Source of the DNA: Bacteroidia bacterium
GTDB taxonomy: Bacteria; Bacteroidota; Bacteroidia; J057
Reading direction: 5' to 3'
NCBI GenBank assembly: GCA_030430575.1
Contig: JAUIKF010000025.1
Coordinates: forward strand, 1-64,000
Length of the DNA stretch: 64,000 nucleotides
This document shows, piece after piece, positions 38,674 to 64,000 of this stretch. The notes beneath the pieces were generated by a model, which made no database searches, was not told the DNA's origin, and saw only the letters and a list, made by a program, of their open reading frames with translations. Positions within the stretch are counted from its first letter, which is position 1, and each line of letters starts with the position of its first letter. Made by a program: the position numbers and the translations under genes.

Positions 38674-38677
38674 CTGA

Positions 38678-40522: not shown

Positions 40523-40545
40523 TTTGTACGGATTTTAGTGAAACA

Positions 40546-40932: not shown

Positions 40933-40969
40933 GGTTTATTAATTAAAGGGTTAAAAAATGTTTGCTTAT

Positions 40970-42334: not shown

Positions 42335-42380
42335 GAATTAAGCGAAGTAATAGGGTGATAGGGTACTGACAGTAAGTATC

Positions 42381-42830: not shown

Positions 42831-42930
42831 AGTAGTATGTTACTTTTGGGGTTATTAGTTCTGGTTGAATCAATTTATATTCCTAGCCTAAATTACAATA
42901 GTAATTTTAGATATTCAAGTCTTTGTGAAT

Positions 42931-45429: not shown

Positions 45430-45486
45430 TAGAGTGGTGGCTTTACAAAATGTTTTATGATTTGAAAGATAATGGAATTCATCCAA

Positions 45487-45953: not shown

Positions 45954-47276
45954 GTGCAAGCAGCCCCCCATAATGCCATAGCCAATAGAATGGACACACT
46001 GATTGAGAAGTGGTCCGCATTTTCCATTGTTCCCGAAGCGCGGGTATGTCGATGGAAGGTAGATGAGGACGAATTGGCGATTGTAAAAGGACTACCAGCG
46101 TATGAGTCCAGTGAAGGGGCTGTAACTCCAGATGTCTTTTTTATTTTTAGGAGCCCTGTACAGGACGAAAAGTCTTATGGAAAGCAGCTAATTGAAGAAT
46201 TGAGGGGCTGGTTTAAAAGTGAAGGGGCCCTTCTTCAGGAAGAAGGACTCTCAATCAAGCTTCCCTTGATTCCGCGAAATGCAAGCTGGGAGGCCCCAGA
46301 AGTGCTTGAATTTATGCACCGTTTCGCAACAAGCCTCTCAGAATCAGCGGAATTAGAAGCAGAAGGATTGATCGTCCTATGCTTATTTCCCCCTACGGGT
46401 AGTACCCCTCCACTTGCCAATTGGGTACAAAAGGCTATAGAAGCAGGTATCTCACCTTTGCTCAGGCTCATGGTAATTGATCTGGATGACAATCCTTGCT
46501 TCGATCCTATCGCTACCCAGTATCCAGACATGGTCCATACCCTCATTGCTGATCTGGACATGCGCAAGGCCATTCATGAACTAGCCGAAACGCATGGCTC
46601 TACCGAGCCAGATGCCCTTTTCAGAAAGCATTATACAGCTTTGTCAGCAGCAGCAGGCAAAAAAGACTGGTCAGAGGCCCAGTTTCACGGCCAAGAAGCC
46701 CTCAAAATCGCTGGAAGTCAACAGTGGAATCCCATGCAGGTGACGGTCTATATGGCCTTGGCAGGTGCTGCGATGAGCTGTGAAAGAAAATCGGATGCAT
46801 TAACGAATTATGACGAGGCTTTTGCCGTAACGGAAAAAATGGTCGCAACCTCAGAACTTGCTGCCGAAAAGCTTGCCGTACAGGTCCTTTTTGGGAAAGC
46901 CTCGATGTTCATTGCAGACCAAGACTATAAGACCGCATTTCAGGTCTATCAGCAGGCTGTACCTTTCGCTGAAATAGTGGAAAAGGAAGCCCAAACGGAA
47001 GAAGAAGGCGGGGGATATTATTTGATGGAAAGCTTGAGGATGAGTGGATTTTGTCAACTAAAACTCAAAGAAGAAGATGAAGCTTGGACCTATTTGAAAC
47101 AGGCATGGGAAACGGGATTGCGTATGAATCCCGAACTCCAAAAAAACACGACTTTGCCTTATATAGGGCAAGAATTGCTTAACTTGATAGATCCTTTGGG
47201 ATATGAACAGGAAGAAGAAGCCATCGAGAAAAAAATGATAGAACTGTTAGGAGAAGACTGGGAGCAAAAACTATAA
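45954..47276 (+). CDS. TPR-like T6SS accessory protein, probable Rhs adaptor
   Basis: 440 residues with a GTG start at 45954, or ATG at 45990 (MDTLIEKW), which is equally likely. The N-terminal 200 form an alpha/beta domain (AVTPDVFFIFRSP, GLIVLCLFPPTGS, LRLMVIDLDDNPCFD). The second half is TPR-like helices (HYTALSAAAGKKDWSEAQ, DALTNYDEAFAVTEK, GFCQLKLKEEDEAWTYLKQA). It lies 15 bp before the Rhs gene. Adaptors or chaperones that load Rhs effectors onto VgrG often sit in this spot, so I infer that role. I see no known adaptor family. Confidence 0.55.
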   Translation: MQAAPHNAIANRMDTLIEKWSAFSIVPEARVCRWKVDEDELAIVKGLPAYESSEGAVTPDVFFIFRSPVQDEKSYGKQLIEELRGWFKSEGALLQEEGLSIKLPLIPRNASWEAPEVLEFMHRFATSLSESAELEAEGLIVLCLFPPTGSTPPLANWVQKAIEAGISPLLRLMVIDLDDNPCFDPIATQYPDMVHTLIADLDMRKAIHELAETHGSTEPDALFRKHYTALSAAAGKKDWSEAQFHGQEALKIAGSQQWNPMQVTVYMALAGAAMSCERKSDALTNYDEAFAVTEKMVATSELAAEKLAVQVLFGKASMFIADQDYKTAFQVYQQAVPFAEIVEKEAQTEEEGGGYYLMESLRMSGFCQLKLKEEDEAWTYLKQAWETGLRMNPELQKNTTLPYIGQELLNLIDPLGYEQEEEAIEKKMIELLGEDWEQKL

Positions 47277-50200: not shown

Positions 50201-51437
50201 CGGCCAGACAGAGCATCGCAACCCCGACGAAGTGGGCAACCTCTTCCGCACCAAGGACCGTTCCGATCGCAGCTACGGCCCTGCAGGCCAGCTCCTCGAA
50301 GCCAACGGCAACCGCTACGAATACGACCAACTGGGTAACCTCACCCGCAAAACCACTGCACGGGGAGACGTCTGGCGGTACGAATGGAACCGCGCTGGCA
50401 TGCTGGCGGCAGTGACGCGCCCCGAAGGCGAGGTCGTGCGCTTCACCTACGACGCCCTTGGGCGGCGCATCAGCAAAAGCTTCAAAGGACGAACGACCCA
50501 CTGGGTCTGGGACGGCAATGTCATCCTGCATGAGTGGGTGACTGTCACCCCTTATATCAAAACAGCCCCCAAGCGCAGGCCTTCCTCCGGCATCAAGATT
50601 AAGCCCCGAAAGCGCTTGACGCTTGCCAATACGCCTGTGGCGACCTTGGCAGCGCCTGTGGTAGAGACACCAGAGGAGCCTGCCTCCACTGAGGTGATCA
50701 CCTGGCTCTTTGAGCCAGAGAGCTTCACGCCCATCGCCAAGCTGCAAGGCGATCAGGCCTTCAGTATCTTGACAGATCATCTGGGCACGCCTGTAGCCAT
50801 GTACGCCCGCGAAGGTGGACAGAAATGGGCGGCGGAGACAAGCATCTACGGGGAGCTGAAGAATGTGCAGGGTGCGCGGGCTGCTTGTCCGTTTCGGTAT
50901 CCCGGGCAGTATGAGGACTGGGAGACGGGGCTGTATTATAACCGCTTTCGGTATTATGATGCGGAAGGGGGGATGTATGTGAGTCAGGATCCGTCTTCTT
51001 TGATGGGAGGCATGAATTTATATAGTTATGTTCATGATATAGTAACATTTATTGATCCTCTTGGCCTTAGTGAACTCTTAGCATTGGTCAATGAAGCACA
51101 TTCTCAACTTGATCCTACAGCCCAGAGATTTAAGACCACTGCTATTGGAAAAGATGCTTCTGGAAATGTATTCATATCTTCTAGCGACCCTAAAGTTCCA
51201 AAAGTGCAAAGAGAGTGGGCAGAATCAAAAGGAATAAAAGTAATCAATAGTGGCGGGACAGATATTCATGCAGAAGAGGCACTAATAAAGTCCAACAAAG
51301 GTGTCACACATATTGATGCCTCAAGGGGTGTTTGTATCGATTGTGAAGAACTAATGAATCAACAATCTGTTACTACAAATACTCATAAAACAGGGAAAAA
51401 GTCTAAAAAGAGAATGAAAAAAGGAAGTTGCAAATAA
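47292..51437 (+). CDS. PAAR-like/Rhs polymorphic effector with C-terminal deaminase-fold toxin
   Basis: 1381 residues. The first 200 are a PAAR-like hydrophobic, Pro-rich region (HIILIPTPGGPVPTPIPH, VGGPPTVSLMAIGMRVG). An Rhs module follows from about residue 230 (DIATGKVFTDHVDFELSGPI) with many YD repeats of the type YDxxGxLTxxTDPLG. It ends in the self-cleavage type motif YDAEGGMYVSQDPSSLMGG and DPLGL (1255-1259). The last 122 residues are the toxin domain: DIHAEEALI (His1326, Glu1328) and RGVCIDCEELM (Cys1348, Cys1351) are the zinc and catalytic residues of nucleotide-deaminase-fold toxins of the YwqJ type. The tail becomes clearly AT-rich from about 51010, showing exchange of the toxin tip. 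Release into neighbours through VgrG is expected. Confidence 0.85.
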   Translation: MMPVAKMMDPVMGVDIHIILIPTPGGPVPTPIPHPFIGMVFDPMEYVPFIGATVLTNSVPRAQAGSECKNIPPHIPMGGPFAKPPGNEGEVFMGSSTVLAEDEPLSFMAMPVISCTDIGVPPPPRPKKKGAPTSLMAPTSVVLPVPAGMPILVGGPPTVSLMAIGMRVGMSALKGLRKLQKGSKKWKKVSDKIHKAADAAMDKVGIKSKKARNAVHKGICTVTGHPVDIATGKVFTDHVDFELSGPIPLKWERVYFSTSEYQSPIGLGWHHPYDMKLVLDKSNGGAGLLLPDGRRTTFTLPEGEELSFNRTERMSLGQDDQGYYVIDSDRMRFDFGKGLGTLPLARISNEAGDQITFTYKRKRLTQIIDSAGRTLTVKSDKSGRITAIHAPHPDHTGETYPIVRYAYDDMGRLTQVTDPLDHSFHFEYQGSLLTKETDRNGLSFHFEYDGETADAKCIRTWGDKGIYDHKLTYAGGITVVENSLGVKTTHFHNGALVTKTIDPLGNVTLFTFNEYNQLLTETDPLGRETTFQYDERGNLTQTTDPSEATTKLSYDEQDLLTTLTDANGGKWAWTYNADNQIASRVDPLGLTTEYSYQKGQLTSIQTPGQGITSLSYDKAKNLVRLTTADGQSSRWKYDALGRQRVSIDPNANVQRRHFDLAGNVTRVDEPDGNRRFLTYDAEGNVIHAKDRQHDVRFAYAGMSRMVSRKENGTEVAFEYDTEENLIGIVNEKGRRYEFLLDENGNIFQESGFDRLVRFYERDQASQVVGVKVGSGPEATKTAYGYDEAGRITSVTYDTGETEYYAYRPDGELMEATNGATSIFFERDPLGRVLKEKQGTHEVFSEYDPTGNRIRLSSSQGADLHIRRNQMGDVMTMTTPNAQGWQVQFKRDALGLETSRLLPGKIASRWKRDSLGRPVEHQITGARKSLRKRTYTWSFNDRLKQLGDSLSGVTTFEHDAFGNLASAKYANGQTEHRNPDEVGNLFRTKDRSDRSYGPAGQLLEANGNRYEYDQLGNLTRKTTARGDVWRYEWNRAGMLAAVTRPEGEVVRFTYDALGRRISKSFKGRTTHWVWDGNVILHEWVTVTPYIKTAPKRRPSSGIKIKPRKRLTLANTPVATLAAPVVETPEEPASTEVITWLFEPESFTPIAKLQGDQAFSILTDHLGTPVAMYAREGGQKWAAETSIYGELKNVQGARAACPFRYPGQYEDWETGLYYNRFRYYDAEGGMYVSQDPSSLMGGMNLYSYVHDIVTFIDPLGLSELLALVNEAHSQLDPTAQRFKTTAIGKDASGNVFISSSDPKVPKVQREWAESKGIKVINSGGTDIHAEEALIKSNKGVTHIDASRGVCIDCEELMNQQSVTTNTHKTGKKSKKRMKKGSCK

Positions 51438-52027
51438 TGACCCATTCAGAAAAAATCAGAAAGTTAATATCTCCCCTTAGTAAAAAACAGATTATCCTAT
51501 TTGGTTTGATCTCATTAGGAAGATCTGTTCCATTGTATACTATATTTGCAAAGGAAATAGAAGATGAACAGGGCATGTATTTTTCTGTTTTTAAAAAGGG
51601 CCATAGTTATTTAATGAAATATATTGATGACTTGTTTAATGTCCTTCAAACTAATGATCTACTAAATAATATTAATGCCAATGAGATATCAGAAGAATTA
51701 TTAAAATATGCCCCTGATTCTGAAGCAGTTTCAAGTGTCAATTCAATAATTGCACAAAATTGTGCCATTGCTGCTTCATATTTGGCATTATATATTGATA
51801 ATGATCAGACTCAAAACATACTCTACTGTATTAATAAAAATATAGAAAGTATTGATATCCTTGGATTTGGTAAAGGTCTTGATGAGCCAGAAGCAGAATC
51901 ATTAATTTCAAAAGAAAAAGAAATTCAAATTACAAGCATTAGTCTAATCAAAGAAGTTGATTTCCCATTAAGTAACCACAACAAACAGATTGTAGACTCA
52001 TTTATTAAAAAAAACATTTTAGAATAA
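51437..52027 (+). CDS. probable immunity protein for the deaminase toxin (DUF416-like)
   Basis: 196 residues. The start ATG at 51437 overlaps the Rhs stop (TAATG), which fixes it and signals coupling. Text such as LSKKQIILFGLISLGRSVPLYTIF is like the opening of DUF416/YjaG-type proteins. The remainder is helical and acidic. It has the same AT-rich base composition as the toxin tip, so both came together. Position and composition, more than similarity, support the immunity role, which would be to bind and block the deaminase. Confidence 0.7.
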   Translation: MTHSEKIRKLISPLSKKQIILFGLISLGRSVPLYTIFAKEIEDEQGMYFSVFKKGHSYLMKYIDDLFNVLQTNDLLNNINANEISEELLKYAPDSEAVSSVNSIIAQNCAIAASYLALYIDNDQTQNILYCINKNIESIDILGFGKGLDEPEAESLISKEKEIQITSISLIKEVDFPLSNHNKQIVDSFIKKNILE

Positions 52028-52261: not shown

Positions 52262-52981
52262 ATGCCTTTCGAATTTGTACATACAGTAAAACGTGGAGAG
52301 AACCTCAGCAAGATTGGACGGCTATACGGCCTCTCCAACCCTGGGCCGATAGCTACCCACCCAGACAACAAAGTCTTGTTCTATCAAAATCGGAACTTCG
52401 TTATCCACCCTGGGGATAAGCTGGTTATTCCCTGGCCAGAGGAGAAGTTGCGGAAATTCCGGGACTTGCTCACGCGCCTGATCGCCGACGGCGAGGCGAC
52501 GACCCAGCGGCTGACGGCCTCCCTCTTGGCAGACCGCCGAGAAGTGGAGCGCATCGAAAACAATGCCGATATAGCGGCCTTCTTGCTGACTTTGGGCGTA
52601 GGCATAGGCGCCCTTACTGCCAAGGGGCTGAAGGGGGCTTCCATGACCAACTCTGAAGCCGTTCAGTGGTTGGTGACAGATCGTTTGCTCATGGGCCATA
52701 GCATAGCCTCCATGACCGTGAGGCCCTCGGGCGATTCCCGCGTCTGGCGGTTTATCAAGCGGAGTGCTTTGGGGTTTATGAGTCCTTCCTATTATTCCTC
52801 TCTCTATCTCGCAATCAGAGAAAATGATTTTGACATCGCCGCTGATGGCAATACCGCGCCTATCGACAAGGCGATCCGCACGATCAAGACAGAAAATGAT
52901 CGCATGAATGCTAGACTCCGACAGAAGCGGACGGAGGTAGAGGCGCAGATGGGGGCTTCGTATTATAGGAATAGGATATAG
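52262..52981 (+). CDS. LysM-domain protein with a hydrophobic helix
   Basis: 239 residues. LysM-type start EFVHTVKRGENLSKIGRLYG with IHPGDKLVIPW (residues 49-58) is a single peptidoglycan-binding repeat. A hydrophobic helix (DIAAFLLTLGVGIGALTAKG) lies at about residue 99, and a C-terminal coiled-coil-like helix at 210-231. It has no signal peptide, so it may be carried by the T6SS or be a tail-associated factor, as LysM proteins are in phage and injection systems. It follows the immunity gene after 234 bp with a weak hairpin (52107-52128). Confidence 0.7.
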   Translation: MPFEFVHTVKRGENLSKIGRLYGLSNPGPIATHPDNKVLFYQNRNFVIHPGDKLVIPWPEEKLRKFRDLLTRLIADGEATTQRLTASLLADRREVERIENNADIAAFLLTLGVGIGALTAKGLKGASMTNSEAVQWLVTDRLLMGHSIASMTVRPSGDSRVWRFIKRSALGFMSPSYYSSLYLAIRENDFDIAADGNTAPIDKAIRTIKTENDRMNARLRQKRTEVEAQMGASYYRNRI

Positions 52982-52988
52982 GAATTTT

Positions 52989-53065
52989 GACGGAAGTGAA
53001 GAATCACATTATAGATAAATGAAAATGAGCCTAGTAAGATTCTTCACTGCGTTCAGAATGACAGC
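52989..53065. repeat. degenerate relative of the 6490 inverted-repeat element
   Basis: GATTCTTCACTGCGTTCAGAATGACA (53039-53064) with a shortened inverted arm GAAGTGAAGAATCA (52992-53005). It is the same family as the 28-bp stem at 6529-6607, in a different sequence version. The spacer is AT-rich. Confidence 0.55.
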
Positions 53066-53147
53066 GTTGCTGTTGATATTTGAAAACCTTAATGGCAAGC
53101 TATCTCAATAAATTCAAACGATTCCCTAGTATTTTTCAGGTATTCCC

Positions 53148-53795
53148 ATGACCATCCAACAGATCATTGCCCAAAATCGCATCCTTGCCGACACCCTTGG
53201 TTGGGGAGAGCGGATACTTGAGATTTATCGGTATTTGGGATTTAAAGATTACTGCCCAGATGAGGAGACATTTGCACATGCCCTGATGAGGTGGCAGCAG
53301 CGGAACTGCCTTATTGCTACGGGCCTTTTAGATACAAGTACTTGGGCGATCATGCAATTAGAAGTTCCTCCTATCCTCCCCAACGCCATTTCTATGGCTA
53401 TTCCTAAACCTGTACAGGCCCAACGCAGCCGTGCAGAGTGGCTAGCCCAAGTAAAACATACCCATAAGCTGAGTACCCTTGATCCTATTTTTAGGCAAAA
53501 AGCAGAAAATGTCCTGATCAAACTGGTTCAAGATGGGTACCCCATCAGGATCGTTTGGGGCCTGCGTACCTTAGAACAAAACAATGCCCTCGTGCAAAAA
53601 GGAGTGGCTAGTAAGACAAGTCTACACTTGCAGGGAAAAGCCATGGATGTAATTCATCGGATAGAAGCTTATGAATACACAGATGAGAATAAAGCTTATT
53701 GGAATGCTTTGGGGAAATACGCCAAGGAAGAAGGCCTCGTATGGGGCGGGGATTTTGAATCTCGGTATGACCCCACTCATATAGAACTAAAATAA
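53148..53795 (+). CDS. peptidoglycan-binding/M15 peptidase (VanY/endolysin-like)
   Basis: 215 residues. The N-terminal part (residues 20-70; YLGFKDYCPDEETFAHALMR, then ATGLLDTSTWAIM) is a PG_binding_1-like domain. The C-terminal part is an M15-type zinc peptidase: SLHLQGKAMD (SxHxxGxAxD) supplies His and Asp, and GLVWGGDF...DPTHIELK supplies the remaining His and the catalytic Asp. These cut the peptide of peptidoglycan (L-Ala-D-Glu or D-Ala-D-Ala). No signal peptide is seen, so secretion by the T6SS or action in its own envelope are open options. A 47-residue membrane gene follows 7 bp later. Confidence 0.82.
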   Translation: MTIQQIIAQNRILADTLGWGERILEIYRYLGFKDYCPDEETFAHALMRWQQRNCLIATGLLDTSTWAIMQLEVPPILPNAISMAIPKPVQAQRSRAEWLAQVKHTHKLSTLDPIFRQKAENVLIKLVQDGYPIRIVWGLRTLEQNNALVQKGVASKTSLHLQGKAMDVIHRIEAYEYTDENKAYWNALGKYAKEEGLVWGGDFESRYDPTHIELK

Positions 53796-54282: not shown

Positions 54283-55518
54283 ATGGATGCCTCTTCCAAG
54301 CGCTCATTCGACCCTAGATCCTGGGACCACACTTTTGAACTTATTTCTTGGTGGGATGCTGAGAGCGTCCGCAAGGCCAAAGTGATTGTTGTAGGCGCAG
54401 GTGCGCTGGGGAATGAAGTGTTGAAAAACCTGGCTTTGCTCAATGTTGGACATATTTTAGTCATTGACTTCGATACGATTGAGTATTCGAATTTGTCTCG
54501 CTCCATTTTGTTTCGGCCTAGTGATTGTGTCGAGGGAACTGAAGCCAAATTCAAGGCGGATGTAGCAGCTGAGCGTGTCAAAGAGATCAATCCCAATGTG
54601 CACATAAGAAGTATCGTAGGGAAAATTCCAGGAGATGTCGGCCTAGGGGTTTTTCGCCATGCTGATGTGATTATAGGGTGTCTTGACAACCGCCTGGCTC
54701 GACTCTTTATCAATCGCCTAGCGTATAAAATTGGTGCTACGTGGGTGGACGGAGGCATTCAGAACCTTGCGGGGCAAGTAACGGTCTACCGTCCTGGCGA
54801 ATCTTGCTACGAATGTAGCTTGGGTTCTACCGACCGAGAATTTATTCAATTCCAACTAGGGTGCCCAGATATCGCACGGGCAAGTGTAGAGCTTGGACGT
54901 GTACCTACGACTCCGCTGGCAGCTTCCATCATTGGGGCACTTCAAGTCACGGAAGCCCTCAAAGTAGTGCTTGGAAATGATGATAAATTATTGGTTGGCG
55001 AACGTGCATACTATGAGGGGATGAATAATGATTATTTTCGATTTAAGACTACCCCCATGAAGTCAGAGTGCTTGAGTCATTTCACCTATGATCCTATCAT
55101 AGAAGCTGACGAGATGACTGCAGACCTTACTGTTGAAGATGCATTGGACCTGCTAGAAGCGCGCTTCAATGATCCTGCTGTTTGCATAGAACTGGATCAA
55201 GAACTCATCACTGAAATCACGACCCGACAAACGGAGAAAACCTATGACGTCATCGTTTCAAAAGCCTCTTTTGGAAAGAAAATGATCGAACGGTATCAAA
55301 TCCAGTCCAATGAGGGGATTGTCATCACAGGAGAAGTGAGGGAATTGACCAAAACCTTCAAGCATTTAGGTCTTTCCTTATTGGAAGTGGGCATTCCCCG
55401 CTTGCACATCATAAAAGTACGCGCCAATGGGGAGACACACTTTGTGGAATTGAGTGGGGATGAACCTCCTTTTGGTACGCCCCAACCTCAAAATGAACAT
55501 GCTATTAACAAACCATAA
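54283..55518 (+). CDS. E1-like ubiquitin-activating enzyme (ThiF/HesA family) with C-terminal extension
   Basis: 411 residues. The Rossmann nucleotide site is VVGAGALGNEVLKNLA (residues 37-52), with the acidic site IDFD (61-64) and NLSRS. GCLDNRLAR (132-140) and CYEC (175-178) follow, then C194 in GCPDIA and LAASIIGALQVTEALKVV. The CxxC together with a later CLSH (263-266) may form the structural zinc site, though only a CxxH is present in place of the second CxxC. C194 is the best candidate for a catalytic cysteine. Residues 271-411 form an extra domain of unknown fold. The enzyme would adenylate the ubiquitin-like protein. First gene of the operon; 50 bp upstream of the Ubl. Confidence 0.88.
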   Translation: MDASSKRSFDPRSWDHTFELISWWDAESVRKAKVIVVGAGALGNEVLKNLALLNVGHILVIDFDTIEYSNLSRSILFRPSDCVEGTEAKFKADVAAERVKEINPNVHIRSIVGKIPGDVGLGVFRHADVIIGCLDNRLARLFINRLAYKIGATWVDGGIQNLAGQVTVYRPGESCYECSLGSTDREFIQFQLGCPDIARASVELGRVPTTPLAASIIGALQVTEALKVVLGNDDKLLVGERAYYEGMNNDYFRFKTTPMKSECLSHFTYDPIIEADEMTADLTVEDALDLLEARFNDPAVCIELDQELITEITTRQTEKTYDVIVSKASFGKKMIERYQIQSNEGIVITGEVRELTKTFKHLGLSLLEVGIPRLHIIKVRANGETHFVELSGDEPPFGTPQPQNEHAINKP

Positions 55519-55568
55519 ACCATCAATCTTCAAAAAATATAGTAAAGATAAATTTTAACGAAAAAACC

Positions 55569-55859
55569 ATGAATGAAGACACTATAATCAGTATTGTCAT
55601 ACGCATCATGCCCAGCGGCATGGAGTTCGATATAGACCTCCCGCTTTACACCACAGGCAAGCAGTTGTTAGATGAGCTAATGGCTTTGGATGAAGTAGAG
55701 CGGGTAGGCCAAAATGGACAACCGTACAGCTATCGCCTGATCTCCAAAGGGACAGGTCAAGAAATAGATCTCGGCAAAAGTCTGTATAATATTGGTATTA
55801 AAGAAGGAGATACCGTCATTCTTGCTGCAGACCTGGAAGCAGGTGCCAGCAGCTATTAA
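55569..55859 (+). CDS. ubiquitin-like beta-grasp protein without terminal Gly-Gly
   Basis: 96 residues. The strand-helix-strand sequence (SIVIRIMPSGMEFDIDLPL, TTGKQLLDELMALDEVER, PYSYRLISKGTGQEIDLGKS, then IKEGDTVILAADLE) is that of a YukD/EsaB-like ubiquitin fold. It ends LEAGASSY, not GG. If conjugation occurs, the four residues ASSY would first have to be removed to leave a C-terminal glycine, a task for a JAMM protease such as those downstream. Otherwise it may act only as a non-covalent protein. It is 50 bp after the E1 gene and 12 bp before the E2. Confidence 0.75.
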   Translation: MNEDTIISIVIRIMPSGMEFDIDLPLYTTGKQLLDELMALDEVERVGQNGQPYSYRLISKGTGQEIDLGKSLYNIGIKEGDTVILAADLEAGASSY

Positions 55860-55871
55860 CCCTAGAACACT

Positions 55872-56741
55872 ATGGATGCGCCAATGCCAGTCTATGATTT
55901 TGATCGCTTACGTGACCCACGTGACAAACGCTTAGCGAATGAGCACATGCTGCTACATGAGTTTTGTAGTAAAACAGATCGGATTCGCTATGAAATCGTC
56001 GGAGACCGCATGCCCCCAGAGAAATACATGGTGTATTATTATGTAAAAAGTATCATTGGGATCAACCCCGAAGACCACTCCCCTATTTATGGGGATCTCC
56101 ATGAGGTGGAAATCAGTTTTCCCACTGGCTTTCCTATCGAGGCAGCCAAGATTTACGCCAAGACCGACCTGTGGCACCCCAATATCAAATGGAGTGGCAG
56201 GTTTAAGGGCAGGGTGTGTGGTAACCTAGAGGATTTTGGGCCTTTATATACATTAGACTTATTGGTCAGAAGAATAGGCGAAATCCTTCAGTACAAAAAC
56301 TATCATGCGATCAAGGAGGTCCAGCCTTACCCAGAAGACTTTGAAGTAGCGGATTGGGTGCTTGCCACTGGAGAGAAGAATGGCTATATGGACAAGTCCA
56401 AAGGCATCGTGGTTGACCCAAGAAACCTGGTCTGGAAAGAGGGCGATCCTGAAGAGGTGTATCAACCTCCCTTAGCGGATACCCCGCCGCAAGAAGCGCC
56501 TGAAGACACAACAGATAGTATTCCCCTTTCAACCTCTGACACGCCTGTAGGAAAAACGGAACCTGAAAAAGAACCGGACCCTATCTCCCCCCCCAAGAAC
56601 ACAGGTCGGAAATCCATCTCAATTAACCCCCGTAAAACCACGAATTCTTCTGAGTCTTCCTCTGACACAGCTTCTGATTCTGGTGAGGATACGCCACCTA
56701 AGTCCAACAAAGGTGGCATTAAGATCATCCGAAAACGCTGA
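55872..56741 (+). CDS. E2-like (UBC fold) conjugating enzyme with disordered tail
   Basis: 289 residues. The UBC core covers about residues 20-170: VEISFPTGFPIEAAKIYAK, the HPN tripeptide (102-104) in LWHPNIKWSGR, and catalytic Cys116 in GRVCGNLEDFGPLYTLDLLV. In classical E2s the HPN-Cys distance is about 10; here it is 14, a short insertion. The last 100 residues are Ser/Pro/Thr-rich and disordered, ending in a basic GGIKIIRKR tail. With the E1 and Ubl it forms a full activation-transfer chain; no E3 is evident. Located 25 bp before the next gene. Confidence 0.88.
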   Translation: MDAPMPVYDFDRLRDPRDKRLANEHMLLHEFCSKTDRIRYEIVGDRMPPEKYMVYYYVKSIIGINPEDHSPIYGDLHEVEISFPTGFPIEAAKIYAKTDLWHPNIKWSGRFKGRVCGNLEDFGPLYTLDLLVRRIGEILQYKNYHAIKEVQPYPEDFEVADWVLATGEKNGYMDKSKGIVVDPRNLVWKEGDPEEVYQPPLADTPPQEAPEDTTDSIPLSTSDTPVGKTEPEKEPDPISPPKNTGRKSISINPRKTTNSSESSSDTASDSGEDTPPKSNKGGIKIIRKR

Positions 56742-56766
56742 TATAACATTGCTTAATTCTTTGACT

Positions 56767-58893
56767 ATGTCACTCAATTATTTTATTCGCATATTAGGAT
56801 TTATATGGATCGGTATCGTTCCTACGGTCGTATGTGCGCAGTTATCAATGACGATACCATTTGAGTCTATAGGACTAGGCAAAAAAAAGGACCATGTTAT
56901 AAAAGGAAGTATTGATGTAGAGATTTATCAAACAAAAAGAACAGGGAAACAAATACCCAAGGGATTGGTGATTACCCAAGATGATCAAATTTCCATTGTA
57001 TTGTCTAACTTTAGATGGGATAAATATGGAAGGAAAGAGATAAAAGAGTCAGTAATGGACTTACAGGGGAGCAGATTTGATCGGGAGAATGAGGATTTTC
57101 GATTAGAAAAGATGACCCTTAGAGATCCCAACAAAGATAACACCACGACCCTGCCTATCAATCAATCTGTCTTTCTTGATCATCAAAGGGCAAAAAAAGC
57201 TCCTGGGACCATCCAAATGGAGATAGTCCCTAATATCCTCTCCAACTGCCAATTAAAAGCTACCCTTGCCCTTCGATTGCGGGTGATTAATATTGCTGAT
57301 GTACAGAAAAGCCGTGAAGAAAGTGCTGAGATAGCTACTTTGACAAAAAAATCGTCTATCGCCATTCGCATCCCCGTCTGGATTTTACCCGCTACGGATG
57401 ATACCCAAGAAAATGAGATGTGGCAAGCAGCCCAAGATGAGACCACAGATATATTTGCCCAAACGGAACTTGCCTGGCAATACCTCAATAAATATGATGA
57501 TTGTGGAAGATTTTCTGCACAGGCTGCTCAACTAGTAAGAGCAAATGAAGATAATGTTTGTGCCGTCCTCGATAAGCTTGGCGCAAGTAAATATCTACAG
57601 GCAATCAAAGATAAAAAATGGGGATGGCAAGGGAGTTGTTCAGACAAAGCCAATTCGATCCTTGGGAGAATGAAGGAAGAAGAAGTCTTTAACAATGCCA
57701 TGAATAGCAAGGGACTTTCTGTCCTTTGTGATTACTTAGAACTTAATGGAAAAGATGCTGCGCTCACTCAAAATGTCTCTTCCGTCAGCGATGAATTAAA
57801 TACGCGAATCGCAAATAAATGGCAATCTTTGTTCCAACGCCTGCAGCCTAGGGGAGAAACGGATAGAAGAGAGTGTCGGCAATTTCTCTCCTACCTCAAC
57901 ACCTGCCAAAGCACTATTCTTACTACTTATATCAATGATTCTAATAAAGAAAAGAAAGGCACTGCAAGCGTGTGTGCCAGGGCACCTTCCCCGTGTGAGA
58001 TTTTATGGAATGAGATCAGCCAATTGAGGAATAATGAAAGTGACACAGAGGTGCTGAATGGGAAATATCGAGAATACTTGGATAAGTGTACAGGCAATGC
58101 CAGCAGGTATGAAGAGATTCTTTCGCTTGTCAAACCTAAATTGTCCCAGCGGAACCAAGATGTAGATATGTTTGGCGGGAAGATGTATCACTTTGATTTG
58201 AATTATTATAAACCATCCTTGTCCCTAACATCTGCCATTCACCATAAAGAGGGAGGGCAGATTCCCCTAAATACCGATGAACATATCCAACTACTGAGGC
58301 AAACAGCAGATGCGATCGCCCCAGAAAAGATCAGGATAGATTTTTCGGTAGAAAAAGAAATCAAATTATTTTTCCCGCCAGACTTAAAAGGGGAATTTTC
58401 CTTTGAGTTTCAAGATGCTTTTGGGAAAACGATTCCATTGAGCATAAATACCAGCCTCAATCCATTAGAGGCAAATTTGATACCTAGTGAAGAGGACGAT
58501 AAATCTCTACGGTTTTATATCACAGGAGGCGATAGTTTAGACGATCATGATAGCATTGCCTATACCCTTATTTTTCAACAAATAGGAGGTCCAGCCGCTA
58601 TTCCGTTCCCTGTCAGTTTAAAAAACCTAACGCCAGACAGCGAATCCCAATATATCCTGAACAAAGAGGAATACCTCTCAGGCTTGCCTGATGGTCAATA
58701 CCAAGTCACTGTCCGTGACCATCGCAATGATGAAGCCCATCAGGTCGAACTTCAAGAACGGATCACCCTCAGTCAGGGCAGTTCCGTTTCCCCTGTCTTT
58801 TTAAAGTCAGGATTGCTTATTACCCTATTACTGATGGTGACTTGGCTTACCTACGCCAATATCCAGTCCGCCAAAAGCGCTAAAAAGAAATGA
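56767..58893 (+). CDS. secreted, C-terminally membrane-anchored protein of unknown function
   Basis: 708 residues. The start ATG at 56767 is fixed by the signal peptide (MSLNYFIRILGFIWIGIVPT...VCAQ); a longer frame would overlap the E2 gene. The N-terminal 200 are beta-rich. A Cys-rich helical middle (CGRFSAQAAQLVRANEDNVC, CDYLELNGKDAALTQ, CQSTILTTY) follows, and a beta domain near the C-terminus precedes the helix SGLLITLLLMVTWLTYANI. It ends in a short basic cytoplasmic tail. It overlaps the JAMM gene by 4 bp. It may be the periplasmic partner of the membrane JAMM and FHA proteins. Family not recognised. Confidence 0.7.
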   Translation: MSLNYFIRILGFIWIGIVPTVVCAQLSMTIPFESIGLGKKKDHVIKGSIDVEIYQTKRTGKQIPKGLVITQDDQISIVLSNFRWDKYGRKEIKESVMDLQGSRFDRENEDFRLEKMTLRDPNKDNTTTLPINQSVFLDHQRAKKAPGTIQMEIVPNILSNCQLKATLALRLRVINIADVQKSREESAEIATLTKKSSIAIRIPVWILPATDDTQENEMWQAAQDETTDIFAQTELAWQYLNKYDDCGRFSAQAAQLVRANEDNVCAVLDKLGASKYLQAIKDKKWGWQGSCSDKANSILGRMKEEEVFNNAMNSKGLSVLCDYLELNGKDAALTQNVSSVSDELNTRIANKWQSLFQRLQPRGETDRRECRQFLSYLNTCQSTILTTYINDSNKEKKGTASVCARAPSPCEILWNEISQLRNNESDTEVLNGKYREYLDKCTGNASRYEEILSLVKPKLSQRNQDVDMFGGKMYHFDLNYYKPSLSLTSAIHHKEGGQIPLNTDEHIQLLRQTADAIAPEKIRIDFSVEKEIKLFFPPDLKGEFSFEFQDAFGKTIPLSINTSLNPLEANLIPSEEDDKSLRFYITGGDSLDDHDSIAYTLIFQQIGGPAAIPFPVSLKNLTPDSESQYILNKEEYLSGLPDGQYQVTVRDHRNDEAHQVELQERITLSQGSSVSPVFLKSGLLITLLLMVTWLTYANIQSAKSAKKK

Positions 58894-60923
58894 ATCGCTT
58901 TTCTGTAGTATTATTGATTGTATGGCTGCTCCTGGGTCGCTCGGGATGGGGGCAGGTGGAGATGTCGGGTATTTCTCGAAATCTTCCTCAAGATATCGAG
59001 ATAAAGTTTGGTGACAATAATAAGTCAAACCTTTCTATTGAGTTTCATGCAAAAAATGATAAAACTGGATGGGCGCCAAAAAACAAAAGGAAAAAAGGTT
59101 GTTTTCTAACTTTCACAAGTGAGCCCTCACAAAACTCATGTATTCAAACTGTTTCTAGCAAATCTAACAAAATGGATTGCTCTGACCCAGGACCTGTTTC
59201 CCTCGAGTACAAATATAAGTTAGGTTTAACGAAGTGTCCTGACAAATTTAATCTTACGATTAACTTTAATATAACTTGTGATTCTGAATCAAATGGTCAA
59301 TTTCAAATTGAATTAACTAAGCCAAGGTCCTTAGCTAATGGAACGAGACAGGATGGAGATGGAACAAGGCAAGATGGAGATAGAACAAGGCAAGATGGGG
59401 ATGGAACGAGACAGGATGGAGATGGAACAAGGCAAGATGGAGATAGAACAAGGCAAGATGGGGATGGAACGAGACAGGATGGAGATGGAACAAGGCAAGG
59501 TGGGGATGGAACAAGACAGGATGGAGATGGGGCAAGACAGGATGGGGGTGGAACAAGACAGGGTGGGGGTGGAACAAGACAGAATGGAGATGGGGCAAGA
59601 CAGAATGGGGATGATACTAACCAGAATGGGAATGGAACAAGACAGGATGGAGATAGGACAGGAAAAGGAAAGGGTAATCCATTTAGCTTAAATGTGATTA
59701 GGGAACCCCAGAATAGTAAGGGCGATTATATTTTAATCTTACCAAAGGTTATAAATGATTCAGGGCCTATAAATACTCTTTACTTCCAAACAAAGCTTAA
59801 TAACGGTAACTATAAACAATCCCCACCTCCTAAAAATTTTATTTTCATCAAGCCCGATACAATTTATGTCCGTGCTCATAAAGATTTGAGAGATACCACT
59901 CGACTAGTTTTAAAACTAGAAAATAGTGGTACATGGGAAAGTCAAGACTTTGTCCTTATTACAGATACTGAACCACAAGAGCCCCCCATAACCTTTATTT
60001 TCGGGGCAATTATTGGGGTATTTATTCTGGTAATTATTCTTTTTATCTGGCAATCATCTCTAGGGAAAAAGAAAAAAGAACAAGCTAAGATTAAAAAGAT
60101 CAAAGACGCCGCAGCGAAGCGCCAGCAGGAAAACGCTAATAAAACCAGCGACGAGCCTGAACCTGCTGCGGAACTCCTTGAGCAACCTGCAGTGGCTAAT
60201 CAATCTCCAGCAACAGAACTATCCGAACCACCAAGCGAGCCAAGTGAAGGGAAGACAGAGATTAAGTTCAAGCGGAGAACTCCGACGCCCCCCAAAAGCC
60301 CAGATGAACTGGCAGCGAGTGCGCTTATTTCCACAGGTTCAGGCAAAACGTATGTTTCCCTGTCCCTGAACGAGCTCTGGGAGGATACCACAGTGAAGCG
60401 GGTAAGCTTACAGCATGAATTGATGGACGATATTGAAGCATTTATTCAGGAAATGAATATCAAGCCGTTTCTTGAAGATGGGCAGGATGCAGTCCCTGAA
60501 ATAGGGGGATTTATTTTGGGAACCTATCAAGGCACAGCCGAAGAGGGATTTGAGGTGTTTTTAGAAAAATTTGCCCGTATCACCCCTGGGACAAGTGACG
60601 TTTATCGTGTTTCCTTTGAAACCCAAGCTTGGGCTGAGCTTGCACAAGAACAGGATAAATATCCAGATCTCGAAACCATCGCCTGGTTTCATACCCACCC
60701 TGGGCATGGCCTCTTTTTGTCTTTACCTGATCAGCGAATTCACAATGGGTTTTTCCAAGAAAAATATCAATTGGCGATGGAGATTGATACGCTAAGTGAC
60801 GGATTGGACATGGCACTCTTCAGCAGGATGCAATCTGGCACAGTCAATAATCGGGATCAGCGGCTCAGTGATAGTTGGTTTAAGTGGGAAACAATTATGA
60901 AAGAAAAGTCAACCAATGAATAA
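58890..60923 (+). CDS. membrane-anchored JAMM protease with heptapeptide-repeat ectodomain
   Basis: 677 residues. Signal-like N-terminus (FSVVLLIVWLLLGRSGWG) and a Cys-rich beta region come first. Then 15 copies of a TRQDGDG-type heptad follow (residues 152-266), then a second beta region, and one membrane helix (ITFIFGAIIGVFILVIILFI). Inside are a Lys-rich and Pro-rich linker with EIKFKRR (457-463) and a JAMM/MPN+ domain: Glu537 in EIGGFILG and H601-T-H603-PGHGLFL-S611-LP-D614, the full zinc set. This fold cleaves ubiquitin-like C-termini or isopeptide bonds. It is thus the likely processing or deconjugating enzyme on the cytoplasmic face, coupled to an outside sensor. Confidence 0.85.
   Translation: MNRFSVVLLIVWLLLGRSGWGQVEMSGISRNLPQDIEIKFGDNNKSNLSIEFHAKNDKTGWAPKNKRKKGCFLTFTSEPSQNSCIQTVSSKSNKMDCSDPGPVSLEYKYKLGLTKCPDKFNLTINFNITCDSESNGQFQIELTKPRSLANGTRQDGDGTRQDGDRTRQDGDGTRQDGDGTRQDGDRTRQDGDGTRQDGDGTRQGGDGTRQDGDGARQDGGGTRQGGGGTRQNGDGARQNGDDTNQNGNGTRQDGDRTGKGKGNPFSLNVIREPQNSKGDYILILPKVINDSGPINTLYFQTKLNNGNYKQSPPPKNFIFIKPDTIYVRAHKDLRDTTRLVLKLENSGTWESQDFVLITDTEPQEPPITFIFGAIIGVFILVIILFIWQSSLGKKKKEQAKIKKIKDAAAKRQQENANKTSDEPEPAAELLEQPAVANQSPATELSEPPSEPSEGKTEIKFKRRTPTPPKSPDELAASALISTGSGKTYVSLSLNELWEDTTVKRVSLQHELMDDIEAFIQEMNIKPFLEDGQDAVPEIGGFILGTYQGTAEEGFEVFLEKFARITPGTSDVYRVSFETQAWAELAQEQDKYPDLETIAWFHTHPGHGLFLSLPDQRIHNGFFQEKYQLAMEIDTLSDGLDMALFSRMQSGTVNNRDQRLSDSWFKWETIMKEKSTNE
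59343..59657 (+). repeat. 21-bp tandem repeat, 15 copies, coding
   Basis: Fifteen units of 21 bp encoding TRQDGDG with variants (ARQDGGG, TNQNGNG, TRQDGDR). The DNA is purine-rich on the plus strand. Neighbouring units are nearly identical, so recent copying and copy-number change are likely. Because each unit is a multiple of 3, other frames stay open too but are not genes. Confidence 0.95.
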
Positions 60924-61533
60924 GGACCAGCCACATATTCAAATCCAGCCACGGAGGCCATTTGTTCAGCAAGATTTAGACGAACTGGTAAGCAGTGCCC
61001 ACGCCCATAACGCTTCGGAGCAGTGGGTTTATGGGAACTGCCAGGTGGAAAGGTGCTTTTTTTACCCTGAAGTCGTCCAAGATATCGACACATGGGCCAC
61101 CAATAGCTTGGAATCCACGCCTGTAGCTGAAACAGGAGGGTTTCTGCTTGGGAATTATGCAATGACCCCCATTGATTCTTATATCTTGGCAGTTCAGCAT
61201 TTTTTGCCCGCTGAGCATATTAGCTTTCAGAGTTCACATCGGCTGCGGATGGGCCCTGCCAGCATGTTGGCCTTGGATAAGGCCCAATTGGCCTATCCTG
61301 ACCAACTAGTCTTGGGGTGGTTTCATACCCATCCTGGCCATACTCCTTTTTTTTCAGAAATAGACCTAGGCACCCATGAAGCCTTTTTCAAAATGCCTTA
61401 TCACATAGGCGTGGTGATGGACCCCTGTCAGGAAACCTATCCCACGGCCATTTTTGCCAGAAGAGAAGATAAAACCATGGTTACACACTGGAACCCAATA
61501 GAATGGATCAAATGGGAAGATTTACGAAATTAA
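60916..61533 (+). CDS. soluble JAMM/MPN+ protease
   Basis: 205 residues, overlapping the previous gene by 8 bp. A full JAMM set: Glu72 in AETGGFLLG, then H137-T-H139-PGHTPFF-S147-EI-D150. There is no signal or membrane segment, so it acts in the cytoplasm. It aligns with the JAMM domain of the membrane protein upstream (both GWFHTHPGH/AWFHTHPGH). It starts with HIQIQPRRP, again the IxI..RR motif. The presence of two JAMM genes suggests different substrates or a precursor-processing step and a deconjugation step. Confidence 0.88.
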   Translation: MNKDQPHIQIQPRRPFVQQDLDELVSSAHAHNASEQWVYGNCQVERCFFYPEVVQDIDTWATNSLESTPVAETGGFLLGNYAMTPIDSYILAVQHFLPAEHISFQSSHRLRMGPASMLALDKAQLAYPDQLVLGWFHTHPGHTPFFSEIDLGTHEAFFKMPYHIGVVMDPCQETYPTAIFARREDKTMVTHWNPIEWIKWEDLRN

Positions 61534-63308
61534 TTATATGGAGTATTGTCTGTAGCCTAATAGGGCTACATCCTGCCTTGGGTCAAGATACCTTGCGGGT
61601 AGATACGGTATTTTTCCAACCTGAAGACCAGGCAATAGAAGTGCATATTTCCTTCAGATCCCTATTTGAAGAAGCGCTTAATCAAGGAAATTTAACCCTC
61701 ACAGAGGTCCAAGATTCTATTGAATACCTGATCCCTCAATTTGAGCGAATCGATTCTAGCAAAGCAACAGGCGAAACCAGTTCTACTACTTATCATATTT
61801 TCCATCTTAAAAAAGATGGATTAACTGCTAAAAGTCATAATTCCTTGTATTTGGGAGAGGCTCGCCTGATCCGCGCAGAGGCTTTTGGCGAATCCGATCA
61901 GAAGCGATTTATCATCGGTAGTGCCAGTAACCCTGTCAACCTAGGCTATATGGATTGGCAGTTGTTGGCTTTGGTGGGAGCCCTATTGGTATCCCTCATT
62001 CTTGCCATCCTCAGCCAACTAATTCCAGAGATTCGAGGCCGCAGGTTTTTCCAAAAATATGTAAAACAGTATAAAGATGTAGACAAAGGAAGGTATAGTA
62101 AAAATGACCCATACACCCTTCAACCATTCAAAGAAAATGATATTGTTGTAGCCAAATGCAGGCAACTCCAAACATTAGATGTCTGGAAGGCATTGGACAA
62201 TAAGTGTATCAATTATGCGGGCTGCCTCCGCAAGCAAGTGGGCATTAAGACCCCTTGCAAGGAAGGAGAGGGGCTCACCCCTAGCGAAGTGTTTTTCAGC
62301 CAGCAAGGCGTCTATCGAATTCTGAACTGGATTTGGTTTGGGGCTTTTGGAGGATTGATGGCGTGGGTAGCGGTGGCTTTCCTTTTTAGCCTTTCTTTGC
62401 CTGGTCTTTATCGGTTTTTTAGCCACTTTTCTCAAGATGGAAACGGGTATGTGTTGATGCAGGATACCTTGACAGGTTTTTTCTTAGGCCTTTTTCTATC
62501 TTTTATGCTTTCCCTTGCAGAAGAGCGTGGGCAATCTCGGATGCTCTCCTGGACACGAATCTTGTTAAGGGCAATCGGGGGAGGACTCATCGCTGCATTG
62601 ATCTTCTGGGGAGCTCATTTGACCTTAGATAAGGTATTCGGTCCAGATGCCAGTTTTGTGATCGGTCTTCTGACGTGGACAGTGTTTGGCGTCGCGTTAG
62701 GGGGTGCATTGAGTATTCAATCCAGTATCAGTACCATAAGAGGCCTGATAGGCGGGGGGATTTCTGGGGCGATTGCTTTTGTGATCTATTACTTCCCCTT
62801 ATTCTTGAATCAATCAGAACTAGGGAGAAATACCTTCGAATGGACAAAAATGTTTGCCTTTATTATGCTAGGCAGCTTATTGGCACTGACCCTCATATCA
62901 GTTGTCAGAAGATACGAAGGATTTGAATTGGAATACCTGAGTCCCAAAGAGTTCAGGCGTGTCAACCCCATCAGCAAATGGCTTAAAATCGGCATGCAGA
63001 TATATATCGGCACCGATAAGGGGTGCTATGTATATATCCACTGGGATGACCCAGCTGTCCAGCCAGAACATGCGGACCTTACTTATAAAGATGGCAAGGT
63101 GCTTATCACCCCCCTCCATCCTGTCCTCCTCAATGGGCGAGAACTTCCTCTCCACCAAGAAACGGAACTAAAGAATAATGATGAGATTCAGTTGGGCATT
63201 GACAGTGTCACGCATATGCGTTTCCGCTTAAAAGAAGCTGTCCCAAAGCCCTCCAAGAAGACCGTCAACCGCAAAAAACCTGAGATCAAAATTTATAAAA
63301 GGAATTAA
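61512..63308 (+). CDS. polytopic membrane protein with Cys4 cytoplasmic cluster and FHA-like C-terminus
   Basis: About 598 residues; the ATG at 61512 (MGRFTKLIIWSIVCSLIG) gives a proper signal peptide, 61503 is an alternative. Residue numbers here count from 61503. A periplasmic beta domain is followed by one membrane helix (LALVGALLVSLILAILSQL, ~155-173). Next come a cytoplasmic stretch with four cysteines (C219, C235, C241, C252) that may bind zinc, and a bundle of about six helices (275-466). The last 100 residues look like an FHA domain: IGTDKGCYVYI, VQPEHADLTYKDGKVLI and NGRELPLHQETELKNNDEIQLG. The usual phosphothreonine-binding SxxH is degenerate (VQPEHA). The tail is PEIKIYKRN. Confidence 0.75.
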   Translation: MGRFTKLIIWSIVCSLIGLHPALGQDTLRVDTVFFQPEDQAIEVHISFRSLFEEALNQGNLTLTEVQDSIEYLIPQFERIDSSKATGETSSTTYHIFHLKKDGLTAKSHNSLYLGEARLIRAEAFGESDQKRFIIGSASNPVNLGYMDWQLLALVGALLVSLILAILSQLIPEIRGRRFFQKYVKQYKDVDKGRYSKNDPYTLQPFKENDIVVAKCRQLQTLDVWKALDNKCINYAGCLRKQVGIKTPCKEGEGLTPSEVFFSQQGVYRILNWIWFGAFGGLMAWVAVAFLFSLSLPGLYRFFSHFSQDGNGYVLMQDTLTGFFLGLFLSFMLSLAEERGQSRMLSWTRILLRAIGGGLIAALIFWGAHLTLDKVFGPDASFVIGLLTWTVFGVALGGALSIQSSISTIRGLIGGGISGAIAFVIYYFPLFLNQSELGRNTFEWTKMFAFIMLGSLLALTLISVVRRYEGFELEYLSPKEFRRVNPISKWLKIGMQIYIGTDKGCYVYIHWDDPAVQPEHADLTYKDGKVLITPLHPVLLNGRELPLHQETELKNNDEIQLGIDSVTHMRFRLKEAVPKPSKKTVNRKKPEIKIYKRN

Positions 63309-63322: not shown

Positions 63323-64000
63323 ATGAAATATACAATTGTATCTATTGTTGCCGCTGCTGTATTGTTAGGGATTTGGGGATTGGGGGGAGAGAAAATGGGG
63401 AAAGAGATGATTTTGCCGCCTGCTGTGACTAGTAGTGCTTCGGCACAAAAGGTATTTATGCCGACGGCTTTTTGTAAGGATGTAACATTGGATTTAGATG
63501 GGATGGGAAGTCTAACTATTGCACCTAGTCATATAGATAATGGTTCGACAGACACTAACCCTTTTACTTTATCAGTATTGCCTTCAACTTTTGACTGTAG
63601 CTCTATTTCCTCGAACCCCAATCTTGTAACGCTTACTGTTGACGCTGGGGGAGGAAGTAGTGATAACTGCACTGCGAATGTAACCCTGAGAGATGTGACG
63701 CCCCCTACTGCTCTTTGCAAGGACATTACTGTTTCCCTTAATGCCTCTACGAATAGTGTGGTGATTAATTCCGCTCTTATAAATGATGGCTCTTCTGATG
63801 CTTGTGGAATTAGTTCTATAAGTATTCCACCTACTACTTTTGACTGTGATGATGTTTCTATACATGCCAAAATCGTCACCTTGAAAGTGACAGATAATCA
63901 TGGGAATAATGCTACATGCCCAGCAGAGGTGCATGTTCAAGATAACATTGCACCTACTGCCAAATGTCAAGCTACTACAGTCTTCTTAGATGCTAATGGC
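63323..64000 (+). CDS. HYR-type repeat surface protein (5' part)
   Basis: 226 codons are open to the window edge, with no stop. Signal peptide MKYTIVSIVAAAVLLGIWGL, then Cys-rich beta-sandwich repeats: STFDCSSISSNPNLVTLTVD, ANVTLRDVTPPTALCKDITV, VTLKVTDNHGNNATCPAEVH, then APTAKCQATTVFLDANG. This is the HYR/immunoglobulin-like repeat style of long secreted adhesins in Bacteroidota. It begins 14 bp after the FHA gene, so it may be in the same operon, or be a free-standing surface protein. The end and any sorting domain lie outside the window. Confidence 0.8.
   Translation, partial: MKYTIVSIVAAAVLLGIWGLGGEKMGKEMILPPAVTSSASAQKVFMPTAFCKDVTLDLDGMGSLTIAPSHIDNGSTDTNPFTLSVLPSTFDCSSISSNPNLVTLTVDAGGGSSDNCTANVTLRDVTPPTALCKDITVSLNASTNSVVINSALINDGSSDACGISSISIPPTTFDCDDVSIHAKIVTLKVTDNHGNNATCPAEVHVQDNIAPTAKCQATTVFLDANG

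Follow-up and report, generated by a model that had tools for sequence, protein, structure and literature searches.

Why should a complete ubiquitin-like conjugation cascade lie beside a type VI secretion system (T6SS)? The question is raised by a stretch of 64,000 nucleotides from a Bacteroidia bacterium (assembly GCA_030430575.1, contig JAUIKF010000025.1, positions 1 to 64,000), referred to here as the window. A cassette in this window encodes an activating enzyme (E1), a ubiquitin-like modifier (Ubl), a conjugating enzyme (E2) and two JAMM metalloproteases, together with two membrane proteins. The answer that is narrowly favored here, with slightly better than even chances, is that the operon is an inner-membrane-associated ubiquitin-like conjugation module serving contractile injection systems (CIS) in Bacteroidia, by reversible Ubl-dependent docking or licensing of the baseplate. 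The functional coupling of the cassette and CIS is well supported by their recurring linkage and by a motif shared between their proteins.

The cassette and its catalytic parts

The cassette consists of seven genes on the plus strand (54283-63308), which encode, in order, E1, Ubl, E2, an envelope protein, JAMM1, JAMM2 and an FHA/transmembrane (TM) protein (Table 1). Successive genes are separated by gaps of 50, 12 and 25 bp and then overlap by 4, 8 and 31 bp; because of these small gaps and overlaps, they are read as a single operon. An initial annotation of this DNA had described a complete cascade of E1, Ubl, E2 and two JAMM proteases, which was confirmed by Pfam matches, invariant residues and two full JAMM residue sets. 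It had also placed the operon at 54283-61533. The close spacing agrees with this description and the extent does not: the operon spans 54283-63308 or beyond, because the 707-aa envelope protein between E2 and JAMM1 and the FHA/TM gene past 61533 were both missed. The Pfam scan found no family or known domain in the envelope protein. Orthologues of JAMM1 reach 60% identity, and a DNA repeat at 59338-59691 gives its ectodomain a run of short, nearly identical units (GTRQDGD-like).

Members of the E1 family from Bacteroidota, Chloroflexi and Planctomycetota are 34-71% identical. The E1 nucleotide site, the C175xxC178...C263xxH266 set and C194 are invariant in 15 orthologues from the three phyla, and this conservation suggests that C175/C178 and C263/H266 are zinc ligands and that C194 is the catalytic cysteine. 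HPN and Cys116 of E2 are kept in 21 of 21 orthologues, and the top PDB matches of an AlphaFold2 (AF2) model of E2, of modest confidence, are all E2 enzymes. JAMM1 (HTHPGHGLFLSLPD) and JAMM2 (HTHPGHTPFFSEID) both have the full HxHP(x6)SxxD set and an upstream Glu before GGF. JAMM2 passes the Pfam cut-off for JAMM, whereas JAMM1 falls below it (E=0.016), and the closest solved structures to JAMM2 are AMSH-like sst2 and RPN11. Every Ubl compared from the three phyla has [A/P]-G near its C-terminus, followed by a tail of 0 to more than 10 residues. Chloroflexi Ubls end in ITAG with no tail, Bacteroidota Ubls in VAG, VPG or EAG plus 0-5 residues, and Planctomycetota Ubls in ITAG plus a tail of 2 to more than 10 residues. 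A conserved glycine followed by a disposable tail would fit a modifier that is conjugated and trimmed by a JAMM protease; the tail in the window would be ASSY.

The catalytic residues of E1, E2 and the JAMM proteases and the Ubl glycine are strictly kept in three phyla, and selection for conjugation chemistry is therefore implied. The same conservation speaks against a Ubl that acts non-covalently in assembly, as an adaptor comparable to YukD/EsaB or to the ubiquitin-like domain of TssN or EccD, beside E1, E2 and JAMM proteins that are vestigial or perform another chemistry. Such an adaptor would resemble YukD, which is reported to be unconjugated in B. subtilis (PMC1779556), and TssN, whose ubiquitin-like domain is a docking hub (PMC10781749); for the window it is judged very unlikely. 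At five Chloroflexi loci (L024-L027 and L035), E1 is fused to an N-terminal GntR-type DNA-binding domain, identified with Pfam in L026 and by alignment in the others, and E2 is fused to a second YukD Ubl. The GntR-E1 fusion suggests that the cascade may regulate its own transcription in Chloroflexi.

The orthologous Chloroflexi and Planctomycetota operons hold E1, E2, Ubl and JAMM with a Prok-RING_1 protein and with FHA-TM and VWA proteins. A separate RING gene was not found in the Bacteroidia cassettes. Between TM segments of the FHA/TM protein there is a cytosolic loop, DPxT..xFxEGDxVVxxC..L.TW...C..YP.C, which aligns with the RING pattern CPxC...VVxC..C...HH..CW...C. Compared with a RING profile by hhalign, the loop gave a local P of 1e-6 and a probability of 91%; none of 30 column-shuffled controls exceeded 28%. 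This similarity suggests that the loop is probably a degenerate RING-like (U-box-like) domain. In one other genome, G531 (genomes are denoted by G-numbers, G000 being that of the window), the FHA/TM protein additionally has a VWA domain.

Linkage to contractile injection systems

The cassette is rare. It was found in 4 of 395 sampled Bacteroidota, in 5 of 22 genomes of the window's order and in 11 of 150 genomes of another family (f49). CIS genes lie within about 10 kb of the cassette at 9 of 16 Bacteroidia loci, with T6SS genes at three and genes of extracellular contractile injection systems (eCIS), PAAR or eCIS_core at six. In the window, a genuine T6SSiii core, which the initial annotation had put about 9 kb away, occupies the minus strand at 33103-45486, 8.8 kb from E1, and contains TssK, TssN, TssG, TssF, TssE, VgrG, Hcp, TssC, TssB and ClpV according to Pfam. 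In G004, divergent TssE-F-G genes lie 0.16 kb from E1, and in G562, TssN, TssK, TssB and TssC follow downstream on the same strand. Genes for eCIS sheath, baseplate, PAAR or eCIS_core effectors stand beside the cassette in G119, G213, G531, G546, G559 and G588. For G119 the families were confirmed (sheath, tubes, gp25, VgrG-like, PAAR and eCIS_core effectors).

When f49 was searched for eCIS sheaths, the seven best of 150 genomes were all among its 11 cassette genomes (624-1246 bits, next best 456). The chance of this ranking is 1e-9 on the assumption of independent genomes; they are not fully independent, but the seven come from five different genera. The eCIS of G010 belongs to the same lineage, and a more distant lineage is present in G001 and G002 on other contigs. 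Linkage to the T6SS only was also considered, since TssC and the cassette occur together in 3 of 5 genomes of the window's family (Fisher p=0.035), but it was rejected because eCIS is the linked machine in other genomes. The interpretation first proposed is partly supported, and the link to a CIS reaches well past one neighborhood: a T6SS (three genomes) or an eCIS or its PAAR/effector genes (six genomes) adjoin the cassette, and cassette and machine parts carry the same terminal motif. Occurrence of the cassette in many genomes without a T6SS, together with a lack of Ubl adducts, had been named in advance as a sign of chance neighborhood, and the first half of this sign was seen. The cassette family was found without a T6SS in Chloroflexi, Planctomycetota and several Bacteroidota, and is therefore not specific to that system.

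A third context was found in G480 and G593, where TssR, known so far as a component of the T6SSiii membrane complex, lies beside the cassette with an FtsX-type permease and no TssC was detected. The TssR homologues are at L121:2373-4940 and 19-2339 in G480 and at L123:3918-8712 in G593 (Pfam TssR and TssR_M, with TssR_C in G480), and an ABC ATPase also stands beside them in G480. In these genomes without detected TssC, TssR and the FtsX-type permease may together represent a relative of the T6SSiii membrane complex that has no sheath. In G593, an array adjoining the cassette (L124:3967-14298) encodes proteins with similar helical N-termini and differing C-terminal parts, resembling a polymorphic effector array; these had no Pfam match, and a description of the N-termini as WXG-like was dropped for lack of Pfam support. 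Another recurring neighbor of the cassette is a conserved protein of roughly 330 aa (L111:1167-2144), with homologues in G119, G213, G531, G546, G559 and G588; it combines a TerB-like domain with an I-x-F-K-K-like pattern at the C-terminus.

The shared terminal motif and a proposed docking platform

Proteins of the cassette and of the linked machines share a short IxI-basic motif, defined as I.[IF].{0,2}[KR][KR] in the last 16 residues; M23 peptidases have it only at the N-terminus. In the window it forms the tails of TssK (TIRIESKRKRNNS), TssN (GIIIKRKRT), E2 (GIKIIRKR) and the FHA protein (EIKIYKRN), and internal or N-terminal versions are present in the cytosolic linker of JAMM1 (EIKFKRR), the linker of an Rhs protein (GIKIKPRKR) and the start of a downstream M23 peptidase (DIKIRKK). 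In other genomes, such tails occur on nearly all E2s, on several FHA proteins and on the nSTAND ATPase (GIKIKKRN, KIVIKKK) that adjoins E1 at several eCIS loci, while M23 N-termini carry KIKIVRK or KIVIKSK. An eCIS LysM protein ends in PIRIKKK in two genomes (G453 and G559), one eCIS_core-type protein ends in AKIKIRK, and the TssK that adjoins the cassette in G562 has SIVIKRP near its end. The motif was present in 21 of 43 E2, FHA, STAND, TssK, TssN and M23 proteins, compared with 9 of 342 other open reading frames (ORFs) of the same loci (p=4e-16) and 4 of 352 background genes sampled from unlinked parts of the same genomes (p=3e-19). It was absent from all 18 TssK proteins of cassette-free T6SSiii loci in other Bacteroidota genomes. 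It was also absent from the TssK of a separate, unlinked T6SSiii in G588, where the cassette adjoins an eCIS, and the C-terminal extension of the window TssN was lacking in the other TssN proteins compared. The strength of this evidence lies in several unrelated protein families that carry the motif and controls that do not. The lysine of IKI was considered as the conjugation acceptor and rejected because this position varies among orthologues (K, R, T, S, V, N, Q or I).

The distribution of the motif also bears on the main rival explanation, effector loading, in which the cassette would conjugate Ubl to effectors, or process them (Rhs, eCIS_core/DUF4157 and other arrays), and would leave the apparatus alone. 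Effector or PAAR genes often directly adjoin E1 (G119, G213, G531 and G559), and the motif occurs in the Rhs linker of the window and at the end of the eCIS_core-type protein mentioned above. However, most effectors are without the motif, which is found mainly on E2, FHA, STAND, TssK, TssN and M23 proteins, and the genes that adjoin the cassette in G588 and G546 are those of the apparatus and not of effectors. Effector loading is held to be unlikely. Both possibilities had been raised in the initial annotation, and modification of secretion parts fits the motif data better than loading of effectors, even with one Rhs linker and one eCIS_core-type protein carrying the motif.

For the favored docking reading, the following sequence of events can be inferred. 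A JAMM protease would trim Ubl to its terminal glycine (LEA-G|ASSY), and E1 would adenylate the Ubl and hand it via C194 to Cys116 of E2. The FHA/TM protein, whose cytosolic loop resembles a degenerate RING, may act as a membrane-bound E3-like platform, and the linkage would be reversed by the membrane-anchored JAMM1, by JAMM2 or by both. The basic IxI-[KR][KR] tails of E2, JAMM1, FHA, TssK, TssN, eCIS LysM, M23 and nSTAND ATPase proteins are proposed to be docking motifs that gather these proteins on a common reader. The simplest reader would be the acidic beta-grasp Ubl itself, by beta-augmentation of the kind seen with SUMO-interacting motifs (SIMs), as SUMO binds its motifs. The Ubls are mostly acidic, and the window Ubl has a net charge of -9; because the tails are basic, the Ubl is the best candidate for the reader. 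Conjugation and removal could then set how long the baseplate, the membrane complex and the wall-opening enzyme stay together at a membrane platform made of the FHA/TM protein, JAMM1 and the 707-aa envelope protein.

The Bacteroidota T6SS baseplate docks through TssK, for which TssN provides a cytosolic domain with a ubiquitin-like fold (PMC10781749), and this docking pair is exactly the set of T6SS parts that carry the motif in the window. A profile comparison of the TssN cytosolic domain with the cassette Ubl gave a weak match (probability 18%, P=0.001). In its widest form, the proposal makes Ubl conjugation a dedicated subsystem of T6SSiii and eCIS. A membrane-anchored E1-E2-RING-like-JAMM platform would recognize the IxI-basic tails of proteins in the baseplate, in the membrane complex and among the parts that open the cell wall, and would tether or license the machine in a reversible way, and the canonical docking on the TssN ubiquitin-like domain would be a related non-covalent form. 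This wider form is given an even chance.

Several observations weigh against the docking reading. The motif pattern was defined after the window tails had been seen, and homologous rows in the counts are not independent. The RING-like loop is without most zinc ligands, which are replaced as in U-boxes, and AF2 on this loop was uninformative, with a predicted local distance difference test score (pLDDT) of 41 from a two-sequence alignment. The unconjugated state reported for B. subtilis YukD also counts here (PMC1779556). G001, a complete genome of the same genus, has the cassette and no TssC, with eCIS only on another contig; G235 has the cassette with neither T6SS nor eCIS found; and no CIS gene was recognized in the 20 kb read in G533. 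No CIS was seen at the Chloroflexi and Planctomycetota cassette loci in the stretches read, and the cassette chemistry is therefore taken to be older than the CIS link and to have become attached to CIS in Bacteroidia. These CIS-free cassettes would also suit a chance neighborhood, in which the cassette sits in plastic genomic islands that happen to hold injection systems as well, with no functional tie. That explanation is judged highly improbable: at 9 of 16 Bacteroidia loci CIS genes, which are of different types, lie near the cassette; within f49 the eCIS lineage occurs in cassette genomes only; and the controls lack the common motif.

Known systems and neighboring genes

The cassette family is already known; the Bacteroidia form and the CIS setting appear to be new. 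Burroughs, Iyer and Aravind (2011) reportedly predicted prokaryotic RING-type E1/E2/Ubl/JAB systems with UBC-type E2, YukD-type Ubl, RING, FHA-TM and VWA partners. The window cassette has E1, UBC-type E2, YukD-type Ubl and JAMM in common with these systems. The Bacteroidota form differs in its degenerate RING inside a multi-TM FHA protein, its membrane-anchored JAMM, its extra envelope proteins, its co-location with CIS and its motif tails on TssK/TssN and eCIS parts. Several Ubl/E1/E2/JAB operon types were predicted by Iyer in 2006 (PMC1779556). BilABCD and types 6a-6e of that work also hold Ubl, E1, E2 and JAB in one operon, but the window E1 has a single adenylation domain, its Ubl one YukD-like domain and its E2 a classical HPN, whereas the E2 of types 6c and 6d lacks the classical His (PMC1779556). 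BilD is an E1 with an inactive and an active adenylation domain (PMC11354881), and this layout is not that of the window E1, in which Pfam finds one ThiF domain. PADLOC found no Bil set or CBASS partner and no match for Ubl, E2, JAMM1 or the FHA protein. The single-domain E1 and the missing Bil set do not support membership of the cassette in the antiphage Bil type that had been brought up at first.

These results also bear on the idea of a stress, defense or quality-control system, which would, for example, tag or dismantle spent sheaths and baseplates, or act as an antiphage module, and would share islands with injection systems. Other bacterial Ubl operons function in antiphage defense (PMC11153139), the ThiF domain has a weak match to PADLOC profiles for E1-E2, and an nSTAND ATPase stands beside E1 at several eCIS loci. 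On the other hand, the BilD match covers 69 residues only, no Bil or CBASS partner is present, and envelope and membrane components together with motif tails on TssK and TssN would have no reason in a generic defense operon. The defense explanation is therefore regarded as distinctly unlikely.

Among secretion machines, the window T6SS shares TssB-I, TssK and TssN with the T6SSiii that has a TssNQOPR membrane complex (PMC10781749), and differs from it by a free, putatively conjugatable Ubl with E1/E2/JAMM and by cassette-type tails on TssN and TssK. TssO, TssP, TssQ and TssR were not recognized among the neighboring genes scanned with Pfam, which are part of the contig ORFs; TssO, TssQ and TssR are often unidentifiable in T6SSiii according to the authors of that work (PMC10781749). 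YukD/EsaB of type VII secretion is a Ubl of the same Pfam family that serves a secretion machine, and YukD operons are listed without E1/E2/JAB (PMC1779556). No FtsK/SpoIIIE or WXG100 match was found among the window genes scanned with Pfam. The eCIS with eCIS_core (DUF4157) effectors, such as AlgoCIS (PMC8894135), share their sheath, tubes, gp25, VgrG-like, PAAR and eCIS_core effector genes with G119, G213 and others, and a ubiquitin-like cassette is not described in the AlgoCIS paper (PMC8894135) or in an eCIS survey (PMC8213781). A literature search, with most subscription papers outside its coverage, found no paper joining a ubiquitin-like cascade to CIS, in agreement with the first impression that such a link was undescribed.

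Between the T6SS core and the cassette lie further plus-strand genes (Table 1). In the Rhs and immunity region (47292-52027), the Rhs C-terminus shows HAE...CxDC, a pattern reminiscent of nucleic-acid deaminase toxins, and the probable immunity gene follows. From 63323-64000 to L045:1-4296, the FHA gene is followed by genes for a long extracellular protein rich in repeats and for a PorP/SprF-type outer-membrane protein, and the cassette of G562 is likewise trailed by a large protein and a PorP-like protein. The M23 peptidase with the N-terminal IKI motif follows at L045:4319-5758 (contig 68319-69758); its homologues are found in the eCIS clusters of G119, G531, G546 and G588 and near the cassette in G453. 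A 322-aa coiled-coil protein further downstream (L045:5881) was considered as TssO but is left unassigned, as it matched no family and BLAST showed no similarity between it and the gene at a similar position in G562.

Table 1. Genes of the cassette, the T6SS core and the region between them in the window
Feature	Position	Strand	Evidence
E1-like activating enzyme, 411 aa, one ThiF adenylation domain and a C-terminal domain	54283-55518	+	Pfam ThiF E=3e-51
Ubl modifier, 96 aa, YukD family, end LEAG-ASSY	55569-55859	+	PF08817 E=8e-7
E2, 289 aa, UBC core with HPN and Cys116, disordered tail with two IxI-basic motifs (KSISINPRK, GIKIIRKR)	55872-56741	+	PF00179 E=1e-7
Envelope protein, ~707 aa, signal sequence, large ectodomain, one C-terminal TM	56767-58893	+	TM scan; 35% identical orthologue in G001
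JAMM1, 677 aa, ectodomain with repeat tract, TM 363-394, cytosolic linker with EIKFKRR, C-terminal JAMM domain	58890-60923	+	HTHPGHGLFLSLPD at residue 601; TM scan
JAMM2, 205 aa, soluble JAMM metalloprotease	60916-61533	+	PF14464 E=8e-9
FHA/TM protein, 601 aa, ectodomain, six TM-like segments, cytosolic RING-like loop ~202-262, FHA domain, C-terminal EIKIYKRN	61503-63308	+	PF00498 E=3e-8; TM scan
TssK baseplate protein, C-terminal motif TIRIESKRKRNNS	33103-34230	-	T6SS_VasE E=4e-8
TssN membrane-complex protein, extra C-terminal tail GIIIKRKRT	34242-35207	-	PF17555 E=1e-26
Remaining T6SSiii core: TssG, TssF, TssE, VgrG, Hcp/TssD, TssC, TssB, ClpV	35213-45486	-	Pfam
TPR protein, 5' of the Rhs gene; homologue in the G588 T6SS adjoins Rhs and VgrG	45954-47276	+	
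Rhs protein, linker motif GIKIKPRKR at residue 1100, variable C-terminal domain	47292-51437	+	Pfam RHS repeats
Probable immunity protein of the Rhs toxin	51428-52027	+	position only; no Pfam family
LysM protein and M15 peptidase, candidate peptidoglycan-acting cargo	52262-53795	+	Pfam LysM, Peptidase_M15_4

Bacterial ubiquitin-like cascades are known mainly from antiphage defense, and the literature search found no biological target outside antiphage defense for the YukD/RING type. If the docking reading is true, ubiquitin-like tagging would have two roles in bacteria, the second being to assemble or fire a nanomachine at a membrane. It would also predict a docking motif that is open to tests with synthetic peptides, and may offer an answer to how the injection systems of Bacteroidota stay at the inner membrane.

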